Source: Alphaproteobacteria bacterium (lineage in GTDB: Bacteria > Pseudomonadota > Alphaproteobacteria > Rs-D84). From it: DNA of 64,000 nt. The notes beneath the pieces were generated by a model, which saw only the letters and a list, made by a program, of their open reading frames with translations, was not told the origin of the DNA and searched no databases. The stretch spans positions 1-64,000 of the forward strand of contig JAFQTD010000029.1 of assembly GCA_017409215.1 (NCBI GenBank). The letters are read 5' to 3'. The stretch's first letter is position 1. The number at the start of each line of letters is the position of its first letter. This document shows positions 4,545-59,264 of this stretch, piece by piece. A program made the translations under genes and the position numbers.

Positions 4545-5705
4545 ATGTTTGGAATCGTTCGTACAGAAGAAAGCAGATTGACCAGTTGGCTGTTTGAAGT
4601 AGACAGACCTTTGTTGCTGTGCGTGTTGTTGATGATGTTGTTGTCGCTGGTGTTTTCTGTGTCTGCAGGGTCTGTTGCGGCAGAACGAATTAATCAACCT
4701 TGGTTCTTTTTTCTGGTAAAGGCATTACCGTTTTATGGATTGGGATTGGGGGCCTTGTTTTTTGCAAGTTTCCTTAGCAAAAAATGGGTGCTGAAGTTGG
4801 CAGGACTTAATTTGCTGATTGGATTGGCGATGTTGCCAATAACTGTGCTGGCACCGCATGTTATTAATGGTTCTGCCAGGTTCGTGTCGCTGGGGGCTTT
4901 TAATGTTATGCCAGCAGATATTATGAAGCCTGGGTTCGTTATAATGACTGCTTTTTTCTTGAGCAAAATGAAAGAAAAATATGGCGAAAATATTTTCACA
5001 AATAAAGATGCGTGGCGTTTCGATACTTGGTTGAGTTGGTGTTATTATTTACTGATTTTTATTCCTGTGTTGTTAGTGATATTTAAACATCCAGATTTTG
5101 GAACGTCTGTTTTATATTTCGCAGTGTGGGGGGCAATGTTGTTTGTTGCGGGTTTGCCTTTGTTCTGTGTGCCGTTGTTTGGTGTGTTGGCTGCGGTGAT
5201 GTTGACAGTTGCGTTCGTGACGTTGCCACACGTGCATAGAAGATTTATGACCTTCTTTACCGGTGAAGGGGAGGCAATGCAGGTGAATAAGTCTGTGGAT
5301 ACATTAAGAAATGGGGGATTGTTGGGGGCAGGTGATGATTCGTTTGTAAAACAGGGATTGCCAGATTCGCATACTGATTTTATCTTTGCAGTTATAGTAG
5401 AGGATTTAGGGGCATTGGGTGGATGTGCATTATTGTTCGTTTTGCTTTATGTGATAAAACGATTGATTACTAGTGCAACAAAGGCAAAGGATTTGTTCGT
5501 TCTGTATGCTGTTGGTGGTGGGGCTGCGTTGTTTGGTGCACAGGTTTGTATAAATATGCTGACAACATTGGGGATAATACCACCAAAGGGTATGACGTTG
5601 CCCTTTATTTCTTATGGGGGCAGTTCATTGTTGTCTTATTGTGTATTGTTCGGATTTATTTTAGCGCTGATTCGTGAAGATAAATGGAAAAAGATGGGGG
5701 ATTAA
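4545..5705 (+). CDS. ftsW: SEDS peptidoglycan glycosyltransferase FtsW
   Basis: 386-residue polytopic SEDS protein. FtsW polymerises septal glycan together with its PBP partner FtsI, which is encoded far away at 44352 in this window. Seen in the sequence: multiple hydrophobic helices, the FHHPDFGT-like segment as FKHPDFGTS, and the C-terminal PFISYGGSSLLS signature. The first 15 residues are cytosolic. RodA is the paralogous alternative, but the position between mraY and murG supports FtsW. The end overlaps the upstream-extended frame of murG. Confidence 0.93.
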   Translation: MFGIVRTEESRLTSWLFEVDRPLLLCVLLMMLLSLVFSVSAGSVAAERINQPWFFFLVKALPFYGLGLGALFFASFLSKKWVLKLAGLNLLIGLAMLPITVLAPHVINGSARFVSLGAFNVMPADIMKPGFVIMTAFFLSKMKEKYGENIFTNKDAWRFDTWLSWCYYLLIFIPVLLVIFKHPDFGTSVLYFAVWGAMLFVAGLPLFCVPLFGVLAAVMLTVAFVTLPHVHRRFMTFFTGEGEAMQVNKSVDTLRNGGLLGAGDDSFVKQGLPDSHTDFIFAVIVEDLGALGGCALLFVLLYVIKRLITSATKAKDLFVLYAVGGGAALFGAQVCINMLTTLGIIPPKGMTLPFISYGGSSLLSYCVLFGFILALIREDKWKKMGD

Positions 5706-6914: not shown

Positions 6915-6944
6915 TAAAAAAAACACCGACGAATAGTCGGTGTT
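6915..6944 (-). terminator. Rho-independent terminator of ftsQ/ftsA-rpe
   Basis: Stem AACACCGAC / GTCGGTGTT with a 5-nt loop. Read on the minus strand it ends in a run of eight T. It lies directly after the ftsA-rpe stop codon. Confidence 0.85.
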
Positions 6945-8729
6945 TTAATGTTTGGTGTCGGTGTTTGGTAATAGACTTTGTACCGCCAGTGGAAAATCAT
7001 GTGATTTGGCAAGATATGAGCCGCTGACCAGTAAATCTGCCCCAGCAGCCCAACATAATGCCGCGGTTTTGTCGTTTATGCCACCATCAACAGATATTGT
7101 AAACTTTAATCCGTATTTTTTGCGCGTGGCGGCAAGTGCAGTTATTTTGCGTGTGGCAGTGGGGTCAAATGTTTGTCCGGCTGCACCAGGGGGAACCGAC
7201 ATTATCATTACTTCATCTATGTCTTTGATAATTGTTTTCAGTAATGATACGGGCGAATCTGGGTGCAGGGCAATACCAACACGACGACCCGCTGCACGAA
7301 CTGTCTTTATTGCATTGCGTAGGCCAGATGTGTTCGTTGATAGTATAATTGTGTCTGCACCGGCTGCAATCGCATCGGATGCCCAAACGGTTGGGCTTTC
7401 GGTCATTAAATGCACGTGCAGATGTGCGTTTGTTTGACTGCGAATCATCTTTAGTTCAGATATACTGCCGGCGATTCGGTCTACGTAAAAGCCGTCCATA
7501 ATGTCAACGTGTATCATTGATATGTCGCCTGATTTGAACAGACTATAGGTTTCAGGATTGCGCATATCGAATGACAAGGTGCTGGGCATTATTGGAATAA
7601 AACGTTTTTTCTTTTTTGGTTTTTTGTTAAATAGACGTTTTATAAAATTAGAATACCGATTTAGCTTGTCGTGGTGCGCAATGTATTTTGTGCGATGTGA
7701 TGCCTCGCATCGCCAGATGTAGTCGGATAATGCGCGTACAGTAGCATCAGATGGCAGAATGTCGGTGATTGTTGCAAATGTGTTTTCAACGAAGTCACGC
7801 AGACCTTCGATAGCGGCACCACCACCAGATATAATTATTTTTGTGGGTTTATATTTCCTTAGCGCATCAAGGCTTTGTTCTTTGATAGTTGATATTATGT
7901 CAATTAATAATGGCATAACAATATCATTTATGTCACCCCTTGAAAAATCGTATGCAGTGTCGGCAGGGGTAAATCTGTCCATTTCTTTGGATAGTAAGGA
8001 TGATACATTGTGCTTTATCGTTGTGGCAGATTCTGGTGATATATTAAACTTTTCACACAGTGCATTGGTTATGTTTGTGCCACCAAGTGGAATTTTAGTG
8101 TGCCATACGGGGCCACGATCTGTCCAGATGGATGCGCTGGTATATTCGGCACCAAAATCAATAAACATAGTTGGTTGTTTGGCCTGTCTATATATATTGT
8201 TTTGTATATATTGTGGGTCAAAAAAAGCAATGGGTTGAATATGCGCTGTACGCATTAAATCATGGGTTTTACTGATTCCTGGTTGCGAATAAAATATAGA
8301 ACTGAATGTGGAAAGTAATTGCAGGTCAATATGATTGATTGGGGTTAACATATTTCTGGATGATGGGGTGTCATAACGCAGTGGAATAATATGTAGCGGG
8401 AAAAAATTGTCAGGGGTATTTATTTTCGATATCTGGTTGCGAATGTCAGAAATGGTTATTTTATGTTCTGACCCCCATACGGTGTTTTGTACAGATATGT
8501 TAAATTTTGATGGGCCAAAATTGCCAGTGATATAGGCGCTGTCAAAATGTGTGCCCAGCTGATGTTCAAGTTCGTCAATTACGGATTTTATTGCAAAGCT
8601 GGTATCAGAACTGTCTGTTGTGAAATATGCAGAACGGTCAATATGACCATTGTTAATGTGATGTGCAATGCCACGTACACCATAGGTGCCGATGTCAAGG
8701 CATAAAAAAGATGATGATATTAAATTCAT
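6945..8729 (-). CDS. FtsA-ribulose-phosphate 3-epimerase fusion protein
   Basis: One uninterrupted 594-residue frame with two complete families. Residues 1 to about 360 are the actin-like ATPase FtsA, which tethers FtsZ to the membrane: LDIGTYGVRG (phosphate 1), FIDFGAEYTS (phosphate 2) and ISGGGAAIEGL (adenosine). A basic amphipathic stretch NFIKRLFNKKPKKKK follows, placed like FtsA's membrane-targeting helix. From about 378 to 594 the protein is a ribulose-5-phosphate 3-epimerase (Rpe) TIM barrel: PSTLSFD, IHVDIMDG, HVHLM, MSVPPGAAGQ, SVDGGI. The metal and catalytic His/Asp residues are present. ftsQ lies 9 nt upstream; ftsZ is not in the window. Deviations in Rpe: Pro for Asn in MSVNPG and no His in the ILSTNTS region. 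Confidence 0.9.
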   Translation of the reverse strand: MNLISSSFLCLDIGTYGVRGIAHHINNGHIDRSAYFTTDSSDTSFAIKSVIDELEHQLGTHFDSAYITGNFGPSKFNISVQNTVWGSEHKITISDIRNQISKINTPDNFFPLHIIPLRYDTPSSRNMLTPINHIDLQLLSTFSSIFYSQPGISKTHDLMRTAHIQPIAFFDPQYIQNNIYRQAKQPTMFIDFGAEYTSASIWTDRGPVWHTKIPLGGTNITNALCEKFNISPESATTIKHNVSSLLSKEMDRFTPADTAYDFSRGDINDIVMPLLIDIISTIKEQSLDALRKYKPTKIIISGGGAAIEGLRDFVENTFATITDILPSDATVRALSDYIWRCEASHRTKYIAHHDKLNRYSNFIKRLFNKKPKKKKRFIPIMPSTLSFDMRNPETYSLFKSGDISMIHVDIMDGFYVDRIAGSISELKMIRSQTNAHLHVHLMTESPTVWASDAIAAGADTIILSTNTSGLRNAIKTVRAAGRRVGIALHPDSPVSLLKTIIKDIDEVMIMSVPPGAAGQTFDPTATRKITALAATRKKYGLKFTISVDGGINDKTAALCWAAGADLLVSGSYLAKSHDFPLAVQSLLPNTDTKH

Positions 8730-8738
8730 CTGCGTGGT

Positions 8739-9419
8739 TTATTTTACCAGGATTCTTGATGAATCGCGCATATCAATGGTTTGCAATTCTTTATCAAGAA
8801 GCCTGTAGTTGTTGTGTAATGAAACGATTGTATTAATTGCGGTTGTATAATTTTCTTCGGGCAGCATTATTATAATTCCGCTTGATGTATGTATGTTCCA
8901 GCGACGATTTTCAATAAATTCCAAGTAATCAATATAGCCAAGTAATTTATGCGCCTGTTTTGTTATGTTTGATATGTCGTCTGGTAATTCGCCGCGAAAT
9001 ACAATGTTGTCAATGTTGCGGTGTTCGGTTGGTTGTTTAACTAAATCACCATCGGCAGATAGGGGATAGTAATAAACGCCATCAGTCCATAGTGCAACAG
9101 CCTGATGCGTAGAAACCTTGATAGATAAATTGCCATTCGGCATTCGGCGGACCGATGATTTGTTAACAGTGGGGACAGATAGAATTTGATTGTTTATATC
9201 AGATAGGCTGATTGTTTTTAATGTTGCACCAGTTGGAATAGAAATAGCGTTCTGGATGTTAGATAGGTTTTTGTCGTTTGTATCAGATACTATTGTTATA
9301 TTGTGAATGTGCGACACCGGACCACGACCAGAAAACGTTGTAATCGTGCGTACAGAAAAATAGACCGCCAATATGATGACAAGGGCAAAACTTAACCAAA
9401 AATAGACCGTTTGTTTCAT
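8739..9419 (-). CDS. ftsQ: Cell division protein FtsQ
   Basis: Bitopic divisome protein linking FtsA/FtsW to FtsL/FtsB. About 226 residues: short cytosolic start, membrane helix at about residues 4-22 (VYFWLSFALVIILAVYF), then POTRA and beta domains. It ends in IDMRDSSRILVK, matching the family's C-terminal D-R-x-P-x-R-hydrophobic motif. I prefer the ATG at 9419 over the upstream one at 9455. The promoter at 9427-9455 covers the longer start, and its -10 box lies 7 nt from 9419, implying a leaderless mRNA. Order ftsQ-ftsA is conserved. Confidence 0.88.
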   Translation of the reverse strand: MKQTVYFWLSFALVIILAVYFSVRTITTFSGRGPVSHIHNITIVSDTNDKNLSNIQNAISIPTGATLKTISLSDINNQILSVPTVNKSSVRRMPNGNLSIKVSTHQAVALWTDGVYYYPLSADGDLVKQPTEHRNIDNIVFRGELPDDISNITKQAHKLLGYIDYLEFIENRRWNIHTSSGIIIMLPEENYTTAINTIVSLHNNYRLLDKELQTIDMRDSSRILVK

Positions 9420-9426
9420 ACGGATG

Positions 9427-9455
9427 ATTATATCATATTTTTTCTGGATAGTCAT
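9427..9455 (-). promoter_or_regulatory. ftsQ promoter, leaderless type
   Basis: Minus strand: ATGACT, 17-nt spacer, TATAAT. The -10 box ends 7 nt before the ftsQ ATG, which is where transcription should start, so the mRNA probably has no leader. Confidence 0.6.
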
Positions 9456-19532: not shown

Positions 19533-21809
19533 ATGAAAAAGAAATCTAAATTTTTGCCGGAACGTATTTCTGGTGCCTTAAAGGAAATGCTGTCGCGTTT
19601 GGTTGGGGCGTTATTTTGTTTGTTTGGAATGTGGGCAATTTTTGCTTTGATTTTTTTTGATCCTTATCTGGATGGGGTCGCTGTTGTAAGCACATTCGGA
19701 CAGCAGTCTTGGATTGGGTATTTTGTTGGATTGATGCGCTATGCATTGGGATTTGTGCCAAGTATGTTTGTTTTCTTGGCGTGCATTCGTTTGGGGGCAG
19801 GACATTTGATTGGATTAAAAAATGATGTCAGCCCAGAATTTAATATTCTGCGTGGTATAATTGCAGTGTGTGCCGGTGCGGTTGGGTTTGGTGTGCTGTC
19901 TGCAAATGCAGGTGGATTATTTGGGGCAATCGCAGCAGCAGATTTGGATTCTTGGTTTGGTAGTGTGGCGATAGTTTTGGGTATCTTTTCGGTTTTGCTG
20001 TTCTTGTGGCTGGGTGGTACTATTTTACATGTGAAAATCAGTCATCTGGTCGGGGCATGGCGTTTGTTTATAAAATGGATTCGCGTATTTGCTGGTGCAT
20101 TTAAGATGACTAAGGTCGGGGCAGAAAGTGAAAATGTTTCGATGAAAAGTCTGACGGAAAAATTAAATGCGATGGGTGAAAAAAATGAAAAAAAAGAACC
20201 AAAGCTAAAAGTTAAACAAATATTGATGGGACGTAAGGCAGAGGTAAAAAAAGAACCCGCTAAGTCAAAGGTTGCTGTTGCGCCTGTGCCAAAAGTTGTG
20301 CCTGCAGTGTCTTTGTATGAATTACCAGATACTAAATTGTTGGAAAAATCGAATTTTAGTAAGTATTCAGTCACACCAGAATTAAAACAAAACGCACGTA
20401 GTATGGAGGTGAAATTCGCACAATATGGTGTGCGTGGAAAGGTTGTTGGTATTAAACCTGGGCCAATTGTCACATTGTATGAATTTATGCCAGATGACGG
20501 TACGCGTATGGCAGATGTTAATAAGACTGTGACAGATATGACACGTGCAATGGCAACAGAAAGTATCAGAATTGCGCATATTCCACGTACGCAATTAATT
20601 GGTGTTGAAATGGTGAATTTAACCCGTCAAACAGTGCGTTATCGTGGATTGCTGGAAAATCCGTCCTTTACTGAATCAAAGTATAAAATACCATTGGCGT
20701 TGGGGGTGGATATCGGTGGTAATCCAATGTATTTTGACTTGGCAAAGATGCCGCATATGTTGGTTGCTGGACGTACGGGGTCTGGGAAATCAGTGTTCGT
20801 GCAATCAATCATTACGTCAATCGTGTATCACTTTACCCCGGATAAGTGCAAGTTGATTATTATCGACCCAAAGGGTGTGGATTTCGGATTTTGGGATGAT
20901 ATTCCACACTTGATTACACCAATTGTAAAACTGGAACCAGAACCTGCTGTGAACGCATTAAAATGGGCGGTTCGTGAAATGGAAGAACGCTATAAGCAAA
21001 TGCAACAGTTGAATGCGCGTAATATTGAATCATATAATGAAATCGCTGCACAAAAGCGTGCCAGTGGTGAAAAAATGACTAAACAGGTCGCGGTTGGTAC
21101 AGATGGAGAAACTGGTGAATTGCTGTTTGAAACACAGGAAATTGATTTGTCAGACCTGCCATATATGGTCATTATTATTGACGAGGTTGCAGATTTGATG
21201 AGTCTGGCACGTAAAGAGGTAGAAGCCTGTGTGCAACGTATAGCGCAAAAAGCACGTGCAGCAGGAATTCATTTGGTTATGGCGACCCAGCGACCAGACG
21301 CAACGACCATTACCGGTGTTATCAAGGCGAATTTTCCAACGCGTATATCATTCCAAGCGCGCAGCCGTATTGATAGTGTGACATGCTTGGGCGAAGGTGG
21401 TGCAGAACAATTACTTGCAATGGGTGATATGTTGTTTAGCGAAGCGGGACGTGTCCCAGTGCGTATACATGGTGCCTTTATAGACGACAATGAATTAACC
21501 AAGATAGGTAATTTCTTGCGCAGTCAAGGCGAACCAGAATATGCCGAAGGTGTGACCGAATCAGAATCTGTTGCAGGTTCTGGTGACGTTGGTGGCGCAT
21601 CTGGTGCCACTGCGGGTTCTGGTGATAAAGATGCAGACCTTTATGAACGCGCCAAAGAATTTGTTATTCGTGATAAAAAACCAACAATATCCTATATCCA
21701 GCGACGTTTACAAATTGGCTATAACAAGGCCGCTGGCTTTATGGAACGTATGGAAGAAGAGGGTATTGTGTCTGCGGCTGATGCGAATAACAAGCGTCAT
21801 CTGCTGTAA
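19533..21809 (+). CDS. ftsK: DNA translocase FtsK
   Basis: 758 residues. The N-terminal four-helix membrane domain (about 25-185) localises it to the septum. A short charged linker (about 190-270) follows, then the hexameric motor with Walker A GRTGSGKSV (about residue 413) and Walker B VIIIDEVADL (about 546). The C-terminal winged-helix gamma domain (about 690-758, ISYIQRRLQIGYNKAAGFME) reads polar DNA sequences and activates XerCD at dif. A Gly/Ser/Ala-rich linker lies before gamma. The stop codon is the first base triplet of a large palindrome (21807-21914). Confidence 0.97.
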   Translation: MKKKSKFLPERISGALKEMLSRLVGALFCLFGMWAIFALIFFDPYLDGVAVVSTFGQQSWIGYFVGLMRYALGFVPSMFVFLACIRLGAGHLIGLKNDVSPEFNILRGIIAVCAGAVGFGVLSANAGGLFGAIAAADLDSWFGSVAIVLGIFSVLLFLWLGGTILHVKISHLVGAWRLFIKWIRVFAGAFKMTKVGAESENVSMKSLTEKLNAMGEKNEKKEPKLKVKQILMGRKAEVKKEPAKSKVAVAPVPKVVPAVSLYELPDTKLLEKSNFSKYSVTPELKQNARSMEVKFAQYGVRGKVVGIKPGPIVTLYEFMPDDGTRMADVNKTVTDMTRAMATESIRIAHIPRTQLIGVEMVNLTRQTVRYRGLLENPSFTESKYKIPLALGVDIGGNPMYFDLAKMPHMLVAGRTGSGKSVFVQSIITSIVYHFTPDKCKLIIIDPKGVDFGFWDDIPHLITPIVKLEPEPAVNALKWAVREMEERYKQMQQLNARNIESYNEIAAQKRASGEKMTKQVAVGTDGETGELLFETQEIDLSDLPYMVIIIDEVADLMSLARKEVEACVQRIAQKARAAGIHLVMATQRPDATTITGVIKANFPTRISFQARSRIDSVTCLGEGGAEQLLAMGDMLFSEAGRVPVRIHGAFIDDNELTKIGNFLRSQGEPEYAEGVTESESVAGSGDVGGASGATAGSGDKDADLYERAKEFVIRDKKPTISYIQRRLQIGYNKAAGFMERMEEEGIVSAADANNKRHLL

Positions 21810-23792: not shown

Positions 23793-25619
23793 TTATTCGG
23801 TTGTAGCGGTTGTCTTGCTACGATCAATTGGTTCCCAACGATATGTTGCATTGTCGCCAATAATATCGACAGTCAGAACATATTTCCCGTTGGAACCTTC
23901 GGTTTTTGGGTCTGGAATTGCAGCCAGTGCAGCGGCTTTGGCTTCTTCTGCGATACCTTTGATTGCACTTAATGCCGCCCCAACAGTTTCATAACCATCT
24001 GGCAATGTACCGATTGTGGTGGCGTTCGATTCTGCCAATGCTTTGGCGCGGTTTGCTATTTGGGTTGCAGATAAGCTAAGTTCCATTGCCGGCAGAACAC
24101 CCACAGGTCCGTTGTATTCGCCAAGAGTGAAATCAAAACCATGTAGTAAGGCAGAGATTGCACCAGGTCCCTCGGTACTGCCGTAAAGCTGATTTATTAA
24201 ATCGGACAGGCTGTTTGGGAATACGGGGATATTGGTGCCTTGAGTGGATATAAATAGAGCGTCCATGGCTGGACTATTTCCAAGCAGGCTGCCACTGGGC
24301 AATGTACCGATTGCATTGGTTGCCTGTTCTGCAAGTAGGAAGTTGTTATATATACCTATAGTCTCATTATTATCTAGTCTGCCATCATGGTCCATGTCGA
24401 CCGGAATGCCCAAAAACATATTCGGTAAGATTCCACTGTTATTAACACTGCCGCCAATCCCAAACAATAGTTCCATTAGTCCTGCTAAACTTGTTGGGTA
24501 GACTGGCTCGATATCATAATTTTGATTCATGGATGAAAGAAATTCTGTCCAAGCCTTCTGTTGCGGAACTTCCCCCGTCGGCAATGTGCCGATTTTATCA
24601 TTTATACCTCGGAGTCCAGGAACGCTGGTGCCATCAGATGATAAGTAACCCCGCATAATAGCGTTAGCCAAGCCATAGAATGTTGGTTTGCCGCCATCTG
24701 TACTGAAGAGTAAGGATAGTATTCCGCCGATATCTGTTGGTAAATTGATATTTTCGTCCATACCAAATATCTCAATAAAAGGGGGGAGTGCGCTTAAGGT
24801 TGTTGGCAATGTGCCGATTTTGGCAGAAAGTTCATCGGTTTTATATGCCGATTGAGTTAATTTCCAAAATGGAGCCAACTCCCCGTCAAACGCAGAATAT
24901 CCATAATTATTCAGCAGAGAAGATAAAACATTTAGAAGACCGCCTTTTAGTCCTTTTAGCAATTGCGGGGAGTCGTTTTCTGGGTTATATGTATAAAAAG
25001 AATCCAGTTCTAACATTTGTAATCCTTGGGTATGCAGTCCATTGTTGCCGACCCAGCCTTCGTATATACCCTTTAGCCCTGGGTTAGCAAGCACCCCATT
25101 ATTTTCATCCGTCCAGCCTTCGTACATACCCTGAACCGTTATGCCCTCTGGCAATGTGCCGATTTTATCATTTAATCCCTTGACACCAAGGTAGGTATTT
25201 TTTTCGGAATCAGTCCAACCGTTGTTCAGGGCGTCAAAACCCGCGTAGGACGTTCCATTCTCATCCGTCCAACCGTACAAGATGGAACCAGCAAACATGT
25301 CAAGATATTGGTATAACAAACCAAATGCACCACTGATAGTATTGGGAAATTTTTCTGGATTGATATTGTTCACAAACTTATAGCTATTACCGCCTTGTAT
25401 AAGCAACTGCCTAAGTATGTCAACGGAATCTCTGATTTGTGTATTTAAATCAGTAAAATCGCTTTGATTCGCTTTTAAATCCAGTGCAGTGGTGGTGGCA
25501 TAGTCGGTTAGTGCTTCGTCCAGAAAACTGCGTGATATAATTGATGCGTTCGCAGGTGTGTTGATGCACAGTCCCAAAATTGTACAAAATATACCGGTGT
25601 ATATATATTTTTTTTTCAT
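23793..25619 (-). CDS. Large secreted protein with IGTLP and GWTD repeats
   Basis: About 608 residues. The start at 25619 gives a signal peptide (MKKKYIYTGIFCTILGLCIN, then ANAS) after a GGGGAT ribosome site. The mature part is built from repeats: five IGTLP motifs, four copies of GW(T/V)-type units (GWTDENG, GWTDSEK, GWTDENN, GWVGNNG), and four P-x-S/T-L-x-x-L-like segments (FPNTISGAFGLLY, LPTDIGGILSLLF, YPTSLAGLMELLF, FPNSLSDLINQLY). DMDHDGRLDNNE resembles a calcium-binding EF-hand or dockerin loop. The end has KYVLTVDIIGDNATYRWEP. I do not recognise a named family; a surface or adhesion role is inference. Confidence 0.75.
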   Translation of the reverse strand: MKKKYIYTGIFCTILGLCINTPANASIISRSFLDEALTDYATTTALDLKANQSDFTDLNTQIRDSVDILRQLLIQGGNSYKFVNNINPEKFPNTISGAFGLLYQYLDMFAGSILYGWTDENGTSYAGFDALNNGWTDSEKNTYLGVKGLNDKIGTLPEGITVQGMYEGWTDENNGVLANPGLKGIYEGWVGNNGLHTQGLQMLELDSFYTYNPENDSPQLLKGLKGGLLNVLSSLLNNYGYSAFDGELAPFWKLTQSAYKTDELSAKIGTLPTTLSALPPFIEIFGMDENINLPTDIGGILSLLFSTDGGKPTFYGLANAIMRGYLSSDGTSVPGLRGINDKIGTLPTGEVPQQKAWTEFLSSMNQNYDIEPVYPTSLAGLMELLFGIGGSVNNSGILPNMFLGIPVDMDHDGRLDNNETIGIYNNFLLAEQATNAIGTLPSGSLLGNSPAMDALFISTQGTNIPVFPNSLSDLINQLYGSTEGPGAISALLHGFDFTLGEYNGPVGVLPAMELSLSATQIANRAKALAESNATTIGTLPDGYETVGAALSAIKGIAEEAKAAALAAIPDPKTEGSNGKYVLTVDIIGDNATYRWEPIDRSKTTATTE

Positions 25620-25651
25620 AAATATCCCCTTTCCATTGTGCATAATAAAGA

Positions 25652-30500: not shown

Positions 30501-32501
30501 ATGAAAGTCTTGGTCGATGTGCATGATAAACGTTGGAATAAGTATAAAATAAATTTTGAAAAAATTGCAAATGCAGTTGTTGGAAAAAAATACGAAAATT
30601 CCGAAGTGTCTGTAATATTGACCAATGATAAGGAAATACAGGAAATTAATAAAGAATATAGAAATATCGATAAACCAACAAATGTATTGTCATTTGAATT
30701 AGGGGACGATATTTTGTTGGGTGATATCTATATATCTGTTGATACTGTGCAAAAGGAAGCAAAAGCAGAGAATATAACAGTTGTTGACCATACTGCGCAT
30801 ATGTTGGTGCATGGTGTTTTGCATTTGTTGGGGTATGACCATATCAAGGATGATGAAGCAGAAATTATGGAAGAAAAAGAAACAAAAATTTTAAAAAAAT
30901 TAGGTATCAAAAATCCATATGCGTCGGAAGAATGGAATTGCGATTGTGCAGAATGTTGTCCTGGGGGTGGGGTGATTGCGTGGATTAAGAAATTTAAAAT
31001 AAAAGAAAATGGTTTTTGGCAATACTTTCTGTATGCATTGTTTGGTGGGATTGCGGCATTTGGTTTTGCGCCATTTTATTGTTGGTGGTTAACTGTGTTG
31101 GGAATTGGTGGGGCATACTGGTTAACGGTCAGGCAAAAACAAAAATGTGGATTTTGGCGCGCTTGGCTACGCGTGTCGCCATTTGGTGCAGTTTATGCAA
31201 TATCAATGTTTTGGTGGACCTTGCATTCGATTTATGTTGTGCCAGAATTAGCAAATCAATTTGCAGTTTGGACAATCCCAGGGTTGATTGGATTGGGAAT
31301 TGCGGGTGTGTTTATTTTTACGTGGCCGTTTGTCGCGATTTTGTGTGTACGCAGAAATCAGGCGTATAGCGCGATTTTATTTGCGTGTGTTTGGACGTTG
31401 ATATTGTGGGGGCGGGAATGGTTGTTTACTGGTTTCCCATGGAATCCAATTGCAAATATATCTTTGAATTTTCCGGTGTTGGCAAATTCGATGTCTTTAT
31501 GGGGGGCGTTGGGATTAACGTTTGTTATCGTCGGTCTAATTGCATCTATGGTGGAAGTTATACGAATGCCGAAATCAAAAAAAGTATGGTGTGTTTGTTT
31601 GTTGTTTGTCCTGTTGGGGGCATTGGGGGGGCTGTGGGGGCGATATAATATACAGTTGGCAAGCGTTGGTGAAAACGATGAACATAAATTAATTAGAATT
31701 GTGCAGCCTGCGCAGAATCAGGAACAAAAAGCAACGCATAGCAGAGAGCAGGCAATAAAAAACGCAGAAGAAAATATGCGTGTCTTGTTTGATTTGGCGT
31801 CCCTTGATGGAAATCCTGACTTGATTGTTTTTCCAGAAACTTCATATCCTTTTACTGTCTTGGTGGACGATATAATGCCATTGTCGCAGGCGCTGGGGGC
31901 GGATATTGTTGTTGGGGCAAATTTCTTGGATGTTGATAATGTTTATAATGCGATGGTGTTTGCGGATAAATATGGTCAAATAAATCATATATACAAAAAA
32001 GCTCATTTAGTGCCGTTTGGTGAATATAGTCCATTGGGGATTTTGCCCAGTCCAGTAAATTTATCAGCGGGTCAAGGGCCAGAATTAGTCGATGTGAATG
32101 GCTTGTTGGTCGCGCCTGCGGTATGCTATGAAATCGTTTTTTCTGATTCTGTTATACCAGATGGTGAAAAAACACCAAATGCAATTGTGAATGTTACCAA
32201 TGATAATTGGTTTGGTAATACACCGGGGACGTATCAACACTTGGATATGGCACGCAGGTATGCAATTGAATCTGGGGTGCCGGTGGTGCGTGCAAATTAT
32301 TCGGGTATTAGTGCGTTTGTTTTGTCTGATGGTAATGTGCTGTCGCAATTGTCGGTTGATGAGTCTGGGGTTCTGGATGGCTTTGTGTGGGGTGCACATA
32401 ATACACCATACAGAATGCTGGGGATGAATTTTTGGATGATTGTGATATTGATGTTTTCTGGATTGTGTTTGAAGTGTGTATCAAAAAAATCTAATAGATA
32501 A
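30501..32501 (+). CDS. YbeY endoribonuclease-apolipoprotein N-acyltransferase (Lnt) fusion
   Basis: A single 666-residue frame. Residues 1 to about 145 are YbeY, the metal-dependent RNase of rRNA maturation: NVLSFELGD and HGVLHLLGYDH with the three zinc His. A Cys-rich joint follows (NCDCAECCPGG, about 148-158). The rest (about 165-666) is Lnt, which adds the third acyl chain to lipoproteins: about six to eight helices and a nitrilase domain with the Glu in FPETSYPF, the Lys in YKKAHLVPFGEY and the Cys in AVCYEIVFS. Both active sites look intact. In other genomes ybeY and lnt are neighbours (ybeZ-ybeY-ybeX-lnt), so the fusion joins genes of one operon and drops ybeX. GGGGAAATT precedes the ATG. 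Confidence 0.93.
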   Translation: MKVLVDVHDKRWNKYKINFEKIANAVVGKKYENSEVSVILTNDKEIQEINKEYRNIDKPTNVLSFELGDDILLGDIYISVDTVQKEAKAENITVVDHTAHMLVHGVLHLLGYDHIKDDEAEIMEEKETKILKKLGIKNPYASEEWNCDCAECCPGGGVIAWIKKFKIKENGFWQYFLYALFGGIAAFGFAPFYCWWLTVLGIGGAYWLTVRQKQKCGFWRAWLRVSPFGAVYAISMFWWTLHSIYVVPELANQFAVWTIPGLIGLGIAGVFIFTWPFVAILCVRRNQAYSAILFACVWTLILWGREWLFTGFPWNPIANISLNFPVLANSMSLWGALGLTFVIVGLIASMVEVIRMPKSKKVWCVCLLFVLLGALGGLWGRYNIQLASVGENDEHKLIRIVQPAQNQEQKATHSREQAIKNAEENMRVLFDLASLDGNPDLIVFPETSYPFTVLVDDIMPLSQALGADIVVGANFLDVDNVYNAMVFADKYGQINHIYKKAHLVPFGEYSPLGILPSPVNLSAGQGPELVDVNGLLVAPAVCYEIVFSDSVIPDGEKTPNAIVNVTNDNWFGNTPGTYQHLDMARRYAIESGVPVVRANYSGISAFVLSDGNVLSQLSVDESGVLDGFVWGAHNTPYRMLGMNFWMIVILMFSGLCLKCVSKKSNR

Positions 32502-44055: not shown

Positions 44056-44352
44056 ATGAGAGATGATGAAAAAATGTTTCAAATAGGACTGTGGACTTTT
44101 GTGGTCGCGGTTTTGCTGGGGATAGTTGTGTTCCCTGTTGTATATCGTACTCAAATCAGACAATTAAATCGTGTGCGCAGGGAAATTGTTGCATTGCAAA
44201 AGGAAATTGCCCTGAGAGAGGCAGAATTTGCTGCAATAATAACACCGGAAAGATTAAGAAATTCGGTTGATATCGTTGCACCAAAATCAAAAACAGTTGC
44301 CTTTTCAAGTACTGTTTGGATTGGGGATTTGCCAGATAGAAAAGGATTGTGA
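44056..44352 (+). CDS. ftsL: Cell division protein FtsL-like
   Basis: 98 residues. Short N-terminus, one membrane helix (about 11-29, LWTFVVAVLLGIVVFPVVY) and a periplasmic coiled coil rich in R/E/L. Sequence alone is weakly conserved in this family; the position directly before ftsI (TGATG overlap) makes FtsL the best call. FtsL joins FtsQ and FtsB to activate FtsWI. GGTGGGGT precedes the ATG. Confidence 0.75.
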   Translation: MRDDEKMFQIGLWTFVVAVLLGIVVFPVVYRTQIRQLNRVRREIVALQKEIALREAEFAAIITPERLRNSVDIVAPKSKTVAFSSTVWIGDLPDRKGL

Positions 44353-45971
44353 TGTTTGAAATAGGAAGGGATATTTTTAAACAAGGTTTTTATGGTGGAC
44401 AGGTTGATAGAACCGCAGTTAGTAGATTGCGGGTTGTATATTTGGTGTTTTTATTAGCTTTTAGCATTTTTGCATTGCGAACATTACAGTTGGGAATACA
44501 GGGAACGGATACCATAAGAAAGGGGGTTGTGGCATCAAATTGGAATATTAGTCGTGCAGATATTGTCGATAGAAATGGAGAAATACTGGCAAAAAATTTG
44601 GTGACGGGACATATTCAACTGGTGAAAAAATATATGCAGGATAAAGATAAAGAACTTATCGCACAAACTATACATGAAGTGTTGCCGTATCAGTATTCTT
44701 TGTCTGATGCGATGAAATTAGTTGATTCACCTAGAAGATATATTGAATTGAAAAGAAATGCATCCGAAACGCAAATAAAAAAAATTAGGGACGCGGCATT
44801 GCCGGGTCTGGAGGTAAGGTCGGAACAATTAAGAAAATATCCAAAACGTAATATGTTTTCCCATGTTGTGGGATTCCTGAATAAGGATGGACGTGCAGTG
44901 CAGGGGGCCGAGGCTGTATTTGATGATTATCTGTCCGAAAATAAAGACCCGTTGTATTTGTCGGTGGATTCACGTGTGCAGTCTGCGTTTTATGAACAAT
45001 TATCTTTGGCAATGCAGAAATATCAAACCAAGACAGCAATGGGAATGTTGATGGATTCGCGGACTGGGGAAATTATTGCAATGGTGTCTTTGCCAGACTT
45101 TGACCCAGAAAACATAGGGAATTATCCGGTGGCGAATCGGACTTTGCAAACAATGCGTAATCCGTATGAATTGGGGTCTATATTTAAAATATTTAATACT
45201 GCATTGGCAATGGAAAATGGAATAGATAAAGAATACCTTGTTAATAAACCATTTATAATCGAAGATAAATTTGGACGGCCAGCCGCAAAAATTACAGACG
45301 TTAGAAGTTTTAAACCGCCACGTCCATATTTGAACGTAGAAGAAATTATGATGATGTCTTGTAATGTGGGTAGTGCACAAATTGCACTAGATTTACCAGA
45401 TGGTGCGCAAAAAGAGTTTGTCGAAAGATTACATATGGACAAGGCATTGGATTTGGAAATGGGGCGCACAGAACGTACCATGTTGCCACAAAAATGGGGG
45501 CCTGTGGAAAAGGCGACAGTTGCATACGGACATGGTATATCTGTGACGCCAATGCACCTGTTGTTGGCGGTGAATGCGGTCACCAATGGTGGGTTCTATG
45601 TAAAACCAACACTGCAAAAACGTGGTGTTGGGGTGGTGCGCGCAGAAAAAGTTCTGGAAGAAGAAATTTCTGAAAGATTGCGCGCAATTATGTTTAGGGT
45701 TGCAGAAGAAACAACAGCAAAACAGGCAAGGGTTGCAGGAATTAAAATCGGTGGAAAAACAGGGACTGCTGAAAAGTATGGACCAAATGGAAAAATTGAT
45801 AGAAAGCGTAATGTGACCGCATTCGTGGGAATATTTCCAGTTGATGCACCGCAGTATACAATTATGGTTGTTTTGGATGAACCAAAGGGGTATCCGCGTA
45901 CGGCATCTTATAATGCGGTGCCGGTGACGGGAAAAATTCTTGAAACAATCGTGCCATTGCTATTTGAATAA
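44352..45971 (+). CDS. ftsI: Penicillin-binding protein 3 (septal transpeptidase)
   Basis: About 539 residues, class B PBP that cross-links septal peptidoglycan with FtsW. N-terminal helix (about 25-45); pedestal domain; transpeptidase with SxxK as GSIFKI, SxN as MMSCNVGS (Cys where Ser is usual) and GGKTGTAEK. Start at 44352 rather than the GTG at 44349; ATG overlaps the ftsL stop. murE and murF, normal followers, are absent; recJ follows instead. Confidence 0.94.
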   Translation: MFEIGRDIFKQGFYGGQVDRTAVSRLRVVYLVFLLAFSIFALRTLQLGIQGTDTIRKGVVASNWNISRADIVDRNGEILAKNLVTGHIQLVKKYMQDKDKELIAQTIHEVLPYQYSLSDAMKLVDSPRRYIELKRNASETQIKKIRDAALPGLEVRSEQLRKYPKRNMFSHVVGFLNKDGRAVQGAEAVFDDYLSENKDPLYLSVDSRVQSAFYEQLSLAMQKYQTKTAMGMLMDSRTGEIIAMVSLPDFDPENIGNYPVANRTLQTMRNPYELGSIFKIFNTALAMENGIDKEYLVNKPFIIEDKFGRPAAKITDVRSFKPPRPYLNVEEIMMMSCNVGSAQIALDLPDGAQKEFVERLHMDKALDLEMGRTERTMLPQKWGPVEKATVAYGHGISVTPMHLLLAVNAVTNGGFYVKPTLQKRGVGVVRAEKVLEEEISERLRAIMFRVAEETTAKQARVAGIKIGGKTGTAEKYGPNGKIDRKRNVTAFVGIFPVDAPQYTIMVVLDEPKGYPRTASYNAVPVTGKILETIVPLLFE

Positions 45972-51587: not shown

Positions 51588-52802
51588 ATGAAAAAAATTA
51601 TCTTTGTTTTGTTTGCGCTTTTAATTGTTTTGCTGGTTGTTTGGTTGGTTTTACGCTTTAACAAGGGGAACAATAATAACGTTGTTTATGATAATGGCTA
51701 TGTTGCATCAACAGCAGATGAAGATGTTGTTATATATGATATAGATGATTTAGAAAGTAGGGCGCAGGCCATTATTCCACAAGGGGGATTTGATTATATT
51801 CGTGGTGGGGCAGAAACAGAAAATACAATGAAACGTAATGAAATGGCGTTTGATATGGTCGATATTTATCCGCGTGTGTTGACGGGGGTTAATCAGCCAG
51901 ATACGGAAACGTCTATTCTGGGCATAGATATTTCTTTGCCGGTTATCGTTGCGCCAGCAGCAGCGCATGGGTTGGCACACGTGTCCGCCGAGGCGGGGTC
52001 TGCGCGTGGGGCGGCCGCCAGTGGAACGATTATGTCTGTTAGTACATACGCAAGTTCAACACTGGCAGAAGTAGCCCAGGCCGGAGAGGGGGCACCGCAG
52101 TGGTTTCAGTTATATCTTAGTAAGGATGATGTTGCGAATCAAAATTTAATCAGATTGGCAGAAGATTTGGGGTATAAAGCAATAATATTAACAGTTGATG
52201 CGCCCATTGGTGGAAATCGTATCAGGGACGCAAAAAATAACTTTAAGTTCCCATTGCCTTTGCCAAACGTGCCAAAGAAAAGTGGAGAAACAAAGGGGCA
52301 AGGAATTGGTGCTATCTTTGCGGCTGCAAAAAATGATTTTGCGCCATTTGATGTGATGTATGTTAAGTCTTTGACGGATTTGCCAGTCATTGTAAAGGGG
52401 ATTCAGCATCCTGATGATGCAGAAATTGCTATTTTGGCCGGGGCAGATGCGATTTGGGTGTCAAATCATGGTGGACGACAGTTGGATGGGGCGCCAGCAT
52501 CATTTGAAGTTCTGGGGGAAATTGCAGAGCGTGTGAATAATCGTGTACCAATTATATTTGATAGTGGTATAAGACGCGGCCAGCATATATTCAAAGCAAT
52601 AGCAATGGGGGCAGATGTTGTCGCAATCGGACGGCCTGTTATTTATGGATTGGCATTGGGTGGATGGCGCGGTGTTGTGTCGGTCTTTGATTATTTGAAG
52701 GCTGATTTAAAACGGGTTATGTGGTTGGCAGGTGCATACAATATAGATGATATCAAAAATATAAAGTTAAGAAAAAGATGTGAAACCAAATGGTGCGAAT
52801 AA
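51588..52802 (+). CDS. Membrane-anchored FMN-dependent alpha-hydroxyacid (lactate) oxidase/dehydrogenase
   Basis: 404 residues. An N-terminal anchor (about 3-23) is unusual for the family and should hold the TIM barrel at the membrane, facing the periplasm if it acts as an uncleaved signal. Motifs: GFDYIRGGAE, PVIVAPAAAHGLA, WFQLYLS, LTVDAPIGGNR, and the catalytic SNHGGRQLDG with FDSGIRRG and GADVVAIGRP for FMN. Closest in feel to lactate oxidases. The final residues (RKRCETKWCE) differ from the tail kept downstream (LRNLVCEGEV at 54943), so the 3' end was exchanged by a rearrangement. Preceded by AAAGGAGAACGG. Confidence 0.87.
   Translation: MKKIIFVLFALLIVLLVVWLVLRFNKGNNNNVVYDNGYVASTADEDVVIYDIDDLESRAQAIIPQGGFDYIRGGAETENTMKRNEMAFDMVDIYPRVLTGVNQPDTETSILGIDISLPVIVAPAAAHGLAHVSAEAGSARGAAASGTIMSVSTYASSTLAEVAQAGEGAPQWFQLYLSKDDVANQNLIRLAEDLGYKAIILTVDAPIGGNRIRDAKNNFKFPLPLPNVPKKSGETKGQGIGAIFAAAKNDFAPFDVMYVKSLTDLPVIVKGIQHPDDAEIAILAGADAIWVSNHGGRQLDGAPASFEVLGEIAERVNNRVPIIFDSGIRRGQHIFKAIAMGADVVAIGRPVIYGLALGGWRGVVSVFDYLKADLKRVMWLAGAYNIDDIKNIKLRKRCETKWCE
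52683..52772 (+). repeat. Direct repeat, left copy, at the 3' end of the lactate-oxidase-like gene
   Basis: 90 nt matching 54823-54910. The last 57 nt (52716-52772) are identical to 54854-54910; the upstream part has three or four substitutions and a 2-nt indel. Together the copies flank a 2.05-kb segment with two minus-strand genes. Confidence 0.9.
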
Positions 52803-57656: not shown

Positions 57657-57686
57657 TAATCCTGCCGTTCGGTGGGATTTTTTTCT
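57657..57686 (+). terminator. Lipoprotein gene terminator
   Basis: AATCCtGCC / GGtGGGATT-type stem followed by a T-run. Confidence 0.75.
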
Positions 57687-57719
57687 TTTAAGTTTTGTTC
57701 TTTGTGCTATGCTGGGGGA

Positions 57720-59264
57720 ATGAAATTTTTTATTTGTTTTTTACTGCTGGTGTTTCATTTGTCTGTGACGAATGCACAGATTATTTCAGGACCAAATATG
57801 GGTCAGGATTTTATTCTGTATGAGGATGCAATTGTTCCGTTTGATGTGAATATAAATTCTGGGATTGTAATTGTACAAAATAATAATATCGTGCTGGAAA
57901 ATCTTGGGATAATTGATACTGATTTTGTTCTAAACTCTGCGGATTTATTTATAAAGAATTCGGGTCAATTTATGGCTGATTTTTATTTGTATAATAATTC
58001 GAATGTGTTTCAAGTTATATCTGGTGCAGAAAAATATAATTTAATAGATTTTAATGTGGATTATGGCTTGGTTGTCCATGATGTGGAAAAAGAATTGAAT
58101 GTTTCGGATATACTTGATTTTACATTGGGTGCAAAAAGTGTTTTGATTGAAAATGCGATAATAAATTTGAATGATGTTAATTTGTCTGATTTAAAGCATA
58201 TTGATTTAACCCTTAATGGGGTGGTGGTTTTTAAGATAGACGATGCGCTTGCACTTGGGACGGATGGGGTGTTGTTTGATAATGTTGATGGTAATGCACA
58301 GATTTATTTGACGTATAGTAATGAAAATAAATTATTTACAAAATCTGCATATATGGATGCAGGACGGGTTATTATCACCCAAGAACGTGAAACAGATTAT
58401 GTAAAAATATTTGGTGACAATACAGGTCGCTTCTTGAATGATTTAAGGTTGGCTGGTAAGAAGGAAGCGTTGTTGGCTAGGTTGGATAGCGCACAATCTG
58501 TCGAGGATATTTATTCGACATTGAATGAGTCTGTTATTTTTAATGCAGATAAATTGTTTTATCCAATTAAAAATTTGACTGCATTAAATAAAAACGATTT
58601 TATTTCAAGTGGAATTGATGCTGGTGGTTTTGCGCTGTTTGGTGATGATTATTACGGCTATGGTTTAAGTGCTAATTTTGCGGGCAGGCCATCGGAAAGC
58701 GTGCAGCTTTACCTTGGTGGACAGATTGCGATGTTGGATTATCAATCTGATATTGATACGTATAACGCAAAGCAATATGCGGCAGAGATTGGTGCGAAAT
58801 TTGAATCTGTTTCAAATATTGTCTTTGATATAAGTGCAGGTATTGGATTGGCAAAATTTGATGTTGGTGATGTTTTGTTTGATAATAAAATATTTAATAA
58901 CCCAAGTTTATTGTCTGTCTATTCTGTTTTGGATGCTGGCTACAGGTTTGGTTTTGATAATCATATTTACTTTATGCCATTTGTTGGTGCTGAATTCAAT
59001 ATGTATGATTCAGATGCGTATGATGAAAAGTATGTTGCCATTAGGGCTGGTGTTGAATTTATGTATACGCATAAAATACTGGGGTTGCGTTATGATTATG
59101 GGTTGAAAATGATTGGTAATCATAAAGATGAATTTGTTGCAACGGCAATTGGTAGATTTTGGTCTGAACATGATTTCATAGGTGGAAATATAGAATTGTC
59201 AGCGATTCGGTCACAAGATAATATGTCGTATAAAGTGTCGGTTGGCGTAAACCTGGGGTTTTAG
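57720..59264 (+). CDS. Small autotransporter-like surface protein
   Basis: About 514 residues from 57720 (MKFFICFLLLVFHLSVTNA, signal peptide); GGGGGA lies directly before it. Residues about 20-250 are a beta-rich passenger with repeated N-x-D/N strands (IVIVQNNNIVLENLGI, ALALGTDGVLFDNVDG), probably a short beta-helix. The last 230 or so form a beta-barrel resembling the autotransporter domain (GLSANFAGRPSESVQLYLGG, FMPFVGAEFNMY) and end in VSVGVNLGF with the terminal Phe. The passenger is much shorter than in classical autotransporters. Convergent with miaB, overlapping by 4 nt. Confidence 0.82.
   Translation: MKFFICFLLLVFHLSVTNAQIISGPNMGQDFILYEDAIVPFDVNINSGIVIVQNNNIVLENLGIIDTDFVLNSADLFIKNSGQFMADFYLYNNSNVFQVISGAEKYNLIDFNVDYGLVVHDVEKELNVSDILDFTLGAKSVLIENAIINLNDVNLSDLKHIDLTLNGVVVFKIDDALALGTDGVLFDNVDGNAQIYLTYSNENKLFTKSAYMDAGRVIITQERETDYVKIFGDNTGRFLNDLRLAGKKEALLARLDSAQSVEDIYSTLNESVIFNADKLFYPIKNLTALNKNDFISSGIDAGGFALFGDDYYGYGLSANFAGRPSESVQLYLGGQIAMLDYQSDIDTYNAKQYAAEIGAKFESVSNIVFDISAGIGLAKFDVGDVLFDNKIFNNPSLLSVYSVLDAGYRFGFDNHIYFMPFVGAEFNMYDSDAYDEKYVAIRAGVEFMYTHKILGLRYDYGLKMIGNHKDEFVATAIGRFWSEHDFIGGNIELSAIRSQDNMSYKVSVGVNLGF

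Follow-up and report, generated by a model that had tools for sequence, protein, structure and literature searches.

FtsA is understood as the membrane tether of FtsZ. What does an FtsA do when it is joined in one polypeptide to a ribulose-phosphate 3-epimerase (Rpe), in cells where no FtsZ is detected? The question is raised by a gene in a 64,000-nucleotide stretch of DNA, hereafter the window (contig JAFQTD010000029.1 of assembly GCA_017409215.1, positions 1 to 64,000), which belongs to a 1.13-Mb MAG of 37 contigs with 95.7% completeness and 3.7% contamination. The organism is a member of the alphaproteobacterial order Rs-D84 (named by PMC12306168), represented here by 201 genomes, 183 of them in the GTDB family of the window. 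This family comprises Candidatus Enterousia and its relatives, gut bacteria with reduced genomes in about 13 genera.

Architecture of the FtsA-Rpe protein

A first-pass annotation of the window had reported a 594-codon frame joining FtsA to Rpe, and this frame was confirmed: positions 6945-8729 are open on the minus strand only, a strand that the annotation had left unstated, and translate to 594 residues. In the product, residues 1-342 form an FtsA-type actin domain and residues 378-594 a complete Rpe barrel; between them, residues 343-377 comprise a basic amphipathic helix and a short linker that is disordered. Immediately 3' of the stop codon lie a hairpin and a U-run (Table 1). A search of the window genome for a second rpe, a check suggested in the annotation, found none, and the fusion is the sole rpe and the sole FtsA-type gene detected there.

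Table 1 Features of the fusion gene and of the surrounding window.
Feature	Coordinates	Strand	Basis or remarks
ftsA-rpe fusion gene	6945..8729	minus	594 codons and stop, one frame
FtsA-type actin domain, residues 1-342 (1A, 1C, 2A, shortened 2B)	7704..8729	minus	PF14450, fold, motifs
Basic amphipathic helix 343-367 and disordered linker 368-377	7599..7703	minus	Model helix and low pLDDT, hydrophobic moment, alignment with sister tails
Rpe barrel, residues 378-594	6945..7598	minus	PF00834, NF004076, fold
Rpe His407 and Asp409, metal/catalytic	7503..7511	minus	Invariant 44/44
Rpe His440, metal	7410..7412	minus	Invariant 44/44
Rpe Asp548, metal/catalytic	7086..7088	minus	Invariant 44/44
Hairpin and U-run, probable intrinsic terminator	6916..6944	minus	AACACCGAC-TATTC-GTCGGTGTT then T
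ftsQ	8739..9455	minus	9 bases upstream of fusion; PF03799 33.1 bits, cut-off 21
FtsW-type SEDS protein	4545..5705	plus	TIGR02614 238.7 bits, best match, below cut-off 337.5
FtsK-type DNA translocase	19533..21809	plus	NF007615 412.7 bits, best match
Class B PBP, candidate FtsI (PBP2 also possible)	44349..45971	plus	SpoVD/FtsI/PBP2 models
YbeY endoribonuclease and apolipoprotein N-acyltransferase Lnt (YbeY-Lnt)	30501..32501	plus	Second apparent fusion of adjacent genes, one 666-codon frame
FMN-dependent hydroxy-acid dehydrogenase	51588..52802	plus	PF01070, 382 bits; N-terminal hydrophobic segment
Large secreted-looking protein with repeated segments	23793..25643	minus	No Pfam family
Large secreted-looking protein	57672..59264	plus	No Pfam family

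The AlphaFold model of the fusion, built with 44 family sequences, has a mean pLDDT of 91.8 and contains the FtsA domain, a helix at residues 343-367, a disordered segment at 369-374 and the Rpe barrel. Because the pTM is 0.61 against this high pLDDT, and the linker is disordered, no fixed placement of the FtsA domain relative to the Rpe domain is predicted. Mean identity among members is 0.43 for the FtsA half, 0.61 for the Rpe half and 0.23 for the linker, the FtsA half evolving faster than the Rpe half.

The N-terminal half matches the Pfam FtsA model PF14450 at residues 189-319 with 37.4 bits, above the cut-off of 31.8, and scores only 59 bits with the FtsA equivalog model TIGR01174 (NCBIfam), below its cut-off of 175.85. 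The Pfam model SHS2_FTSA matches only 6/44 relatives. VIA-align paired 335 residues of this half with the FtsA crystal structure 7q6f (Z 32.6, 3.1 Å), and a profile comparison with PDB actins likewise ranked FtsA best. PilM and MreB were rejected as identities for this half: it shares with them an actin-like core and weak Pfam matches, but their fold scores are lower (Z 25.0 and 21.2, respectively), its neighbour is ftsQ, and a separate true MreB exists. As the first-pass annotation had stated, the phosphate and adenosine motifs are intact in the window protein (D12/G14, D191/G193 and G302-G304); G14, G193 and G302 occur in all relatives (44/44), and 41/44 retain D12 and D191, with Tyr replacing the phosphate-1 Asp in three sequences of the genus g26. 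The 1C residues H113 and P116 are invariant across sister FtsAs and fusions. Differences from the solved FtsAs are the shortened subdomain 2B, an identity of 15% and the score below the equivalog cut-off. Erosion of the FtsZ-binding site in 2B was considered as a mark of FtsZ loss, but 2B is likewise shortened in the sister FtsA L117, whose genome has FtsZ. Fold, descent and gene order make the N-terminal half an FtsA homologue; it is not a canonical FtsA, because its FtsZ partner was not found (see below) and the equivalog score is not reached.

Between the two domains, where a basic amphipathic helix had been proposed, the model indeed predicts a helix, and the hydrophobic moment of its sequence, LNRYSNFIKRLFNK, exceeds that of 97% of shuffles (p 0.03). 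It aligns with the membrane helix at the C terminus of the sister FtsAs, which terminate in a canonical amphipathic helix (e.g. KILAKVKKWIDDNF), and is internal here rather than C-terminal. A basic amphipathic segment is kept in 40/44 members, with a median shuffle p of about 0.10, and four sequences of the genus g22 have no amphipathic helix. The sequence and the model suggest that the fusion protein is probably membrane-bound through its internal helix; given the decay of the FtsA half in g22 and g26, membrane binding and ATP use would not be universal in the family.

The C-terminal half matches the Pfam Rpe model PF00834 at residues 380-573 (145.9 bits, cut-off 21.1) and the Rpe subfamily model NF004076 (170.9 bits, cut-off 165), and scores below the cut-off of TIGR01163 (147.5 bits, cut-off 212.6). 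VIA-align paired 214 of its residues with the Rpe crystal structure 2fli (Z 32.0, rmsd 1.5 Å), the structure prediction that had been recommended thus recovering both folds. The metal-binding His and Asp residues to which the first-pass annotation had pointed (H407, D409, H440 and D548) are invariant, as is Ser S383 (44/44 relatives). By sequence and fold this half is an Rpe and a predicted epimerase, resembling other Rpes in its barrel, its metal and catalytic residues and its subfamily model, but unlike them in forming the C-terminal half of an FtsA protein and in a phosphate loop that among fusions is mostly GAAGQ (GFGGQ in 2fli). Its putative service as the epimerase of the cell is consistent with the non-oxidative pentose-phosphate pathway, which is mostly retained in such genomes (PMC12306168).

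Distribution and origin of the fusion

Proteins carrying both FtsA and Rpe, for which the first-pass annotation had proposed a search, were found throughout the family. A scan of GTDB genomes yielded 80 loci from MAGs of Alphaproteobacteria, all of them full-length fusions of 589-604 codons with 50-88% identity, and the fusion is read as a single frame in 80/80 of these independent named loci. Organism names were taken from independent GTDB records bearing the same gene, and include Candidatus Enterousia avistercoris, scatequi, excrementavium and intestinigallinarum. A fusion match was present in 175/183 family genomes, the great majority at full length with a frame of about 590-617 codons, and the genera g22 and g26, merely 29-33% identical, retain it. 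No re-split was found in any family genome with both halves readable, down to about 30% identity. The genomes are nearly all draft MAGs, the searches pass through a first-look filter, and the taxonomy of the comparison genomes is assigned by kinship only. An assembly error or frameshift, which had been named as a possible refutation, is ruled out by the single frame in many independent MAGs, with no stops at the junction. The FtsA-Rpe fusion is a genuine single protein, far beyond chance.

No fusion match was obtained in 8/183 family genomes, and the same eight have no detectable rpe; completeness is 60-87% in seven and 95% in the eighth, G129, and their use as evidence for loss of the fusion is unsupported. 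An Rpe within an 874-aa frame of genome G048 (L123) was also considered as another fusion and rejected: the frame is spurious and, in GC-rich DNA, overlaps an ABC-transporter-like gene.

Sister families encode FtsA and Rpe by separate genes, which mostly overlap; at the loci L115, L117 and L122 these genes overlap or abut, in the order ftsQ-ftsA-rpe or ftsA-rpe. Family f4 (L116:3130-4911, L118-L121) shows the ancestral ftsA-rpe cluster in a second state, with the two genes separated by an ABC-transporter gene. Phylogenetic analysis placed the fusion FtsAs in one clade (support 100/100; no shuffle as low), which supports a single origin of the fusion; this one clade, together with the adjacency of ftsA and rpe in the sisters, would be explained by one stop-loss in the stem lineage. 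The first-pass annotation knew of no such protein, and a literature search found no paper joining FtsA with ribulose-phosphate 3-epimerase and fusion; the FtsA-Rpe protein is thus not described in any paper found.

FtsZ and the other division genes

The first-pass annotation had further proposed that the FtsA tether places the enzyme at the Z-ring. In a search with TIGR00065, FtsZ was found in 0/183 family genomes and in 18/18 of the remaining genomes of the order. A first sample had found it absent from 35/35 genomes of the genus and present in 24/24 others, and the tubulin model PF00091 gave no match above cut-off in 141 genomes of the genus. Since FtsZ is undetected in the family, the Z-ring premise fails. 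These searches suggest that the family has lost FtsZ and that the Z-ring is probably absent, and its cells seem to use a mode of division that has not been described; no paper pairing Enterousia with FtsZ was found in the literature search.

Two FtsZs of sister families, L125:1519-2745 (genome G038) and L126:1033-3036 (genome G040), are without the usual C-terminal EIPxFL-type peptide. A search for FtsA found none in G038 and a partial 61-bit match in G040, with no convincing full FtsA, and G041 has a normal-scoring FtsZ, yet no clear FtsA.

In 80/80 named loci, the gene immediately upstream of the fusion, on its strand, encodes FtsQ, and the two genes presumably share an operon. The FtsW-type gene of the window indicates that the genome retains genes for septal wall synthesis, and best or candidate matches to FtsK and FtsI lie further along the window (Table 1). 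MreB was detected in 20/23 family genomes, scoring above cut-off in the window genome, and MreC in 10/11. With wall-synthesis genes kept and FtsZ undetected, the cell would possess a wall-synthesis divisome without an apparent Z-ring. In genome G106 (99% complete, 7 contigs) mreB and ftsZ were not found and mreC is kept; the region G106:C1:60000-95000 (L156, L157), syntenic to a region of G099, is without mreB.

Possible roles of the fused FtsA domain

We lean slightly towards a model in which the fusion serves septal wall synthesis as a membrane-bound FtsA scaffold that works independently of FtsZ and bears the sole Rpe of the cell. In this model, the ancestor would have carried an ftsQ-ftsA-rpe operon, loss of the ftsA stop would have produced a read-through FtsA-Rpe protein, and the same stem lineage would have lost ftsZ. 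No longer tethering FtsZ, the FtsA domain would bind ATP, sit at the membrane via its internal amphipathic helix, oligomerise as do other FtsA and MreB actins, and directly recruit or activate FtsQ and FtsW/FtsI-type synthases, probably with MreB. The Rpe domain would be a working epimerase, supplying the only Rpe activity of the cell, and the main effect of the join would be guaranteed co-expression and membrane tethering, with extra oligomerisation possible.

In E. coli, FtsA binds the membrane via an amphipathic helix and is genetically linked to FtsW activation (PMC10591338). FtsA forms antiparallel double filaments via 1C contacts, which have been likened to MreB (PMC7613929), and chlamydial MreB is reported to be able to direct division in E. 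coli without FtsZ (PMC7029139). The decay of the FtsA half in g22 and g26, its faster evolution and the 59-bit equivalog score count against the scaffold model, and MreB alone could be sufficient as a division scaffold. We put forward only tentatively the broader proposal that an FtsA-type actin replaces FtsZ family-wide, with membrane-bound FtsA-Rpe as the cytoplasmic division scaffold, physically coupled to the sole epimerase. In G106, where both ftsZ and mreB were not found, FtsA-Rpe would be the only cytoskeletal candidate.

A serious rival, although on balance unlikely, is that the fusion is passive: a stop-loss joined overlapping operon genes, the halves keep their old or residual jobs, and the join brings co-expression only. 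The overlapping or abutting ftsA and rpe genes of the sisters and the poorly conserved linker (identity 0.23) are consistent with this, as is YbeY-Lnt, which demonstrates that fusion of neighbouring genes is not unique to the ftsA-rpe pair in the window; together with the FtsA decay in g22 and g26, it keeps the passive reading alive. Such a reading is at odds with the zero re-splits among genomes with both halves readable, with the coincidence of the fusion branch with the apparent loss of FtsZ, and with the persistence of the basic amphipathic segment in 40/44 members despite low identity.

It is improbable that the FtsA domain has left division altogether and now only anchors the epimerase to the membrane, stabilises it or regulates it, given the position of ftsQ directly upstream in 80/80 loci and the conservation of 1C and nucleotide residues in most members, even though the FtsZ partner was not found, the ATP motif or membrane helix is decayed in g22 and g26, and the FtsA half evolves faster than Rpe. 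A metabolic checkpoint, in which Rpe, on binding pentose phosphate, would gate FtsA assembly and so time division, is the stronger form of the metabolic input suggested in the first-pass annotation. It would fit the conservation of both active sites in a single-copy protein, but is very doubtful, as no fixed domain-domain placement is predicted (disordered linker, pTM 0.61) and the Z-ring on which it would act is apparently missing.

There is a slender chance that the family has an FtsZ whose divergence puts it beyond the reach of the searches, in which case there would be an ordinary Z-ring system and an FtsA with an extra domain. The searches rely on the first-look filter, and the FtsZ of G038, in the same order and outside the family, is already eroded to 31 bits. 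However, even this FtsZ was detected; an order-specific FtsZ profile (A1) gave no match in 27 family genomes and recovered 3/3 positive controls, which are among the sequences used to build it; and FtsZ was not found in G104, a 99%-complete chromosome in a single contig of 1,001,484 bases. An assembly error, a frameshift, or two proteins arising by internal initiation or cleavage is scarcely credible, for although there is an ATG at codon 381, M381 occurs in just 20/44 relatives, a start there would delete the first Rpe strand, and many independent MAGs have the junction without stops; proteolysis of the fusion would escape an analysis of sequence.

Like the FtsAs of E. coli, T. maritima and V. 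maritimus, the fusion has the fold with 1C, the nucleotide motifs, an amphipathic helix and the ftsQ-ftsA order; unlike them, it occurs in a genome without an FtsZ partner, its helix is internal, and an Rpe is fused to it. The family resembles Chlamydia and Wolbachia supergroup J in the absence of FtsZ and the retention of MreB and wall synthesis genes, but both of these are without FtsA (PMC10591338, Table 2), whereas the family keeps a fused, conserved FtsA. Among the obligate intracellular bacteria in that table, ftsZ and ftsA occur together or are missing together, and an enzyme-fused FtsA without FtsZ across about 13 genera is not among the tabulated cases.

If the scaffold model is true, the role of FtsA itself, in forming a membrane scaffold and activating septal wall synthesis, would be separable from FtsZ tethering, and the question of what FtsA can do alone would be testable by a natural experiment. 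Division without FtsZ would then have a further, independent example in Proteobacteria that have peptidoglycan genes and are common in animal guts.
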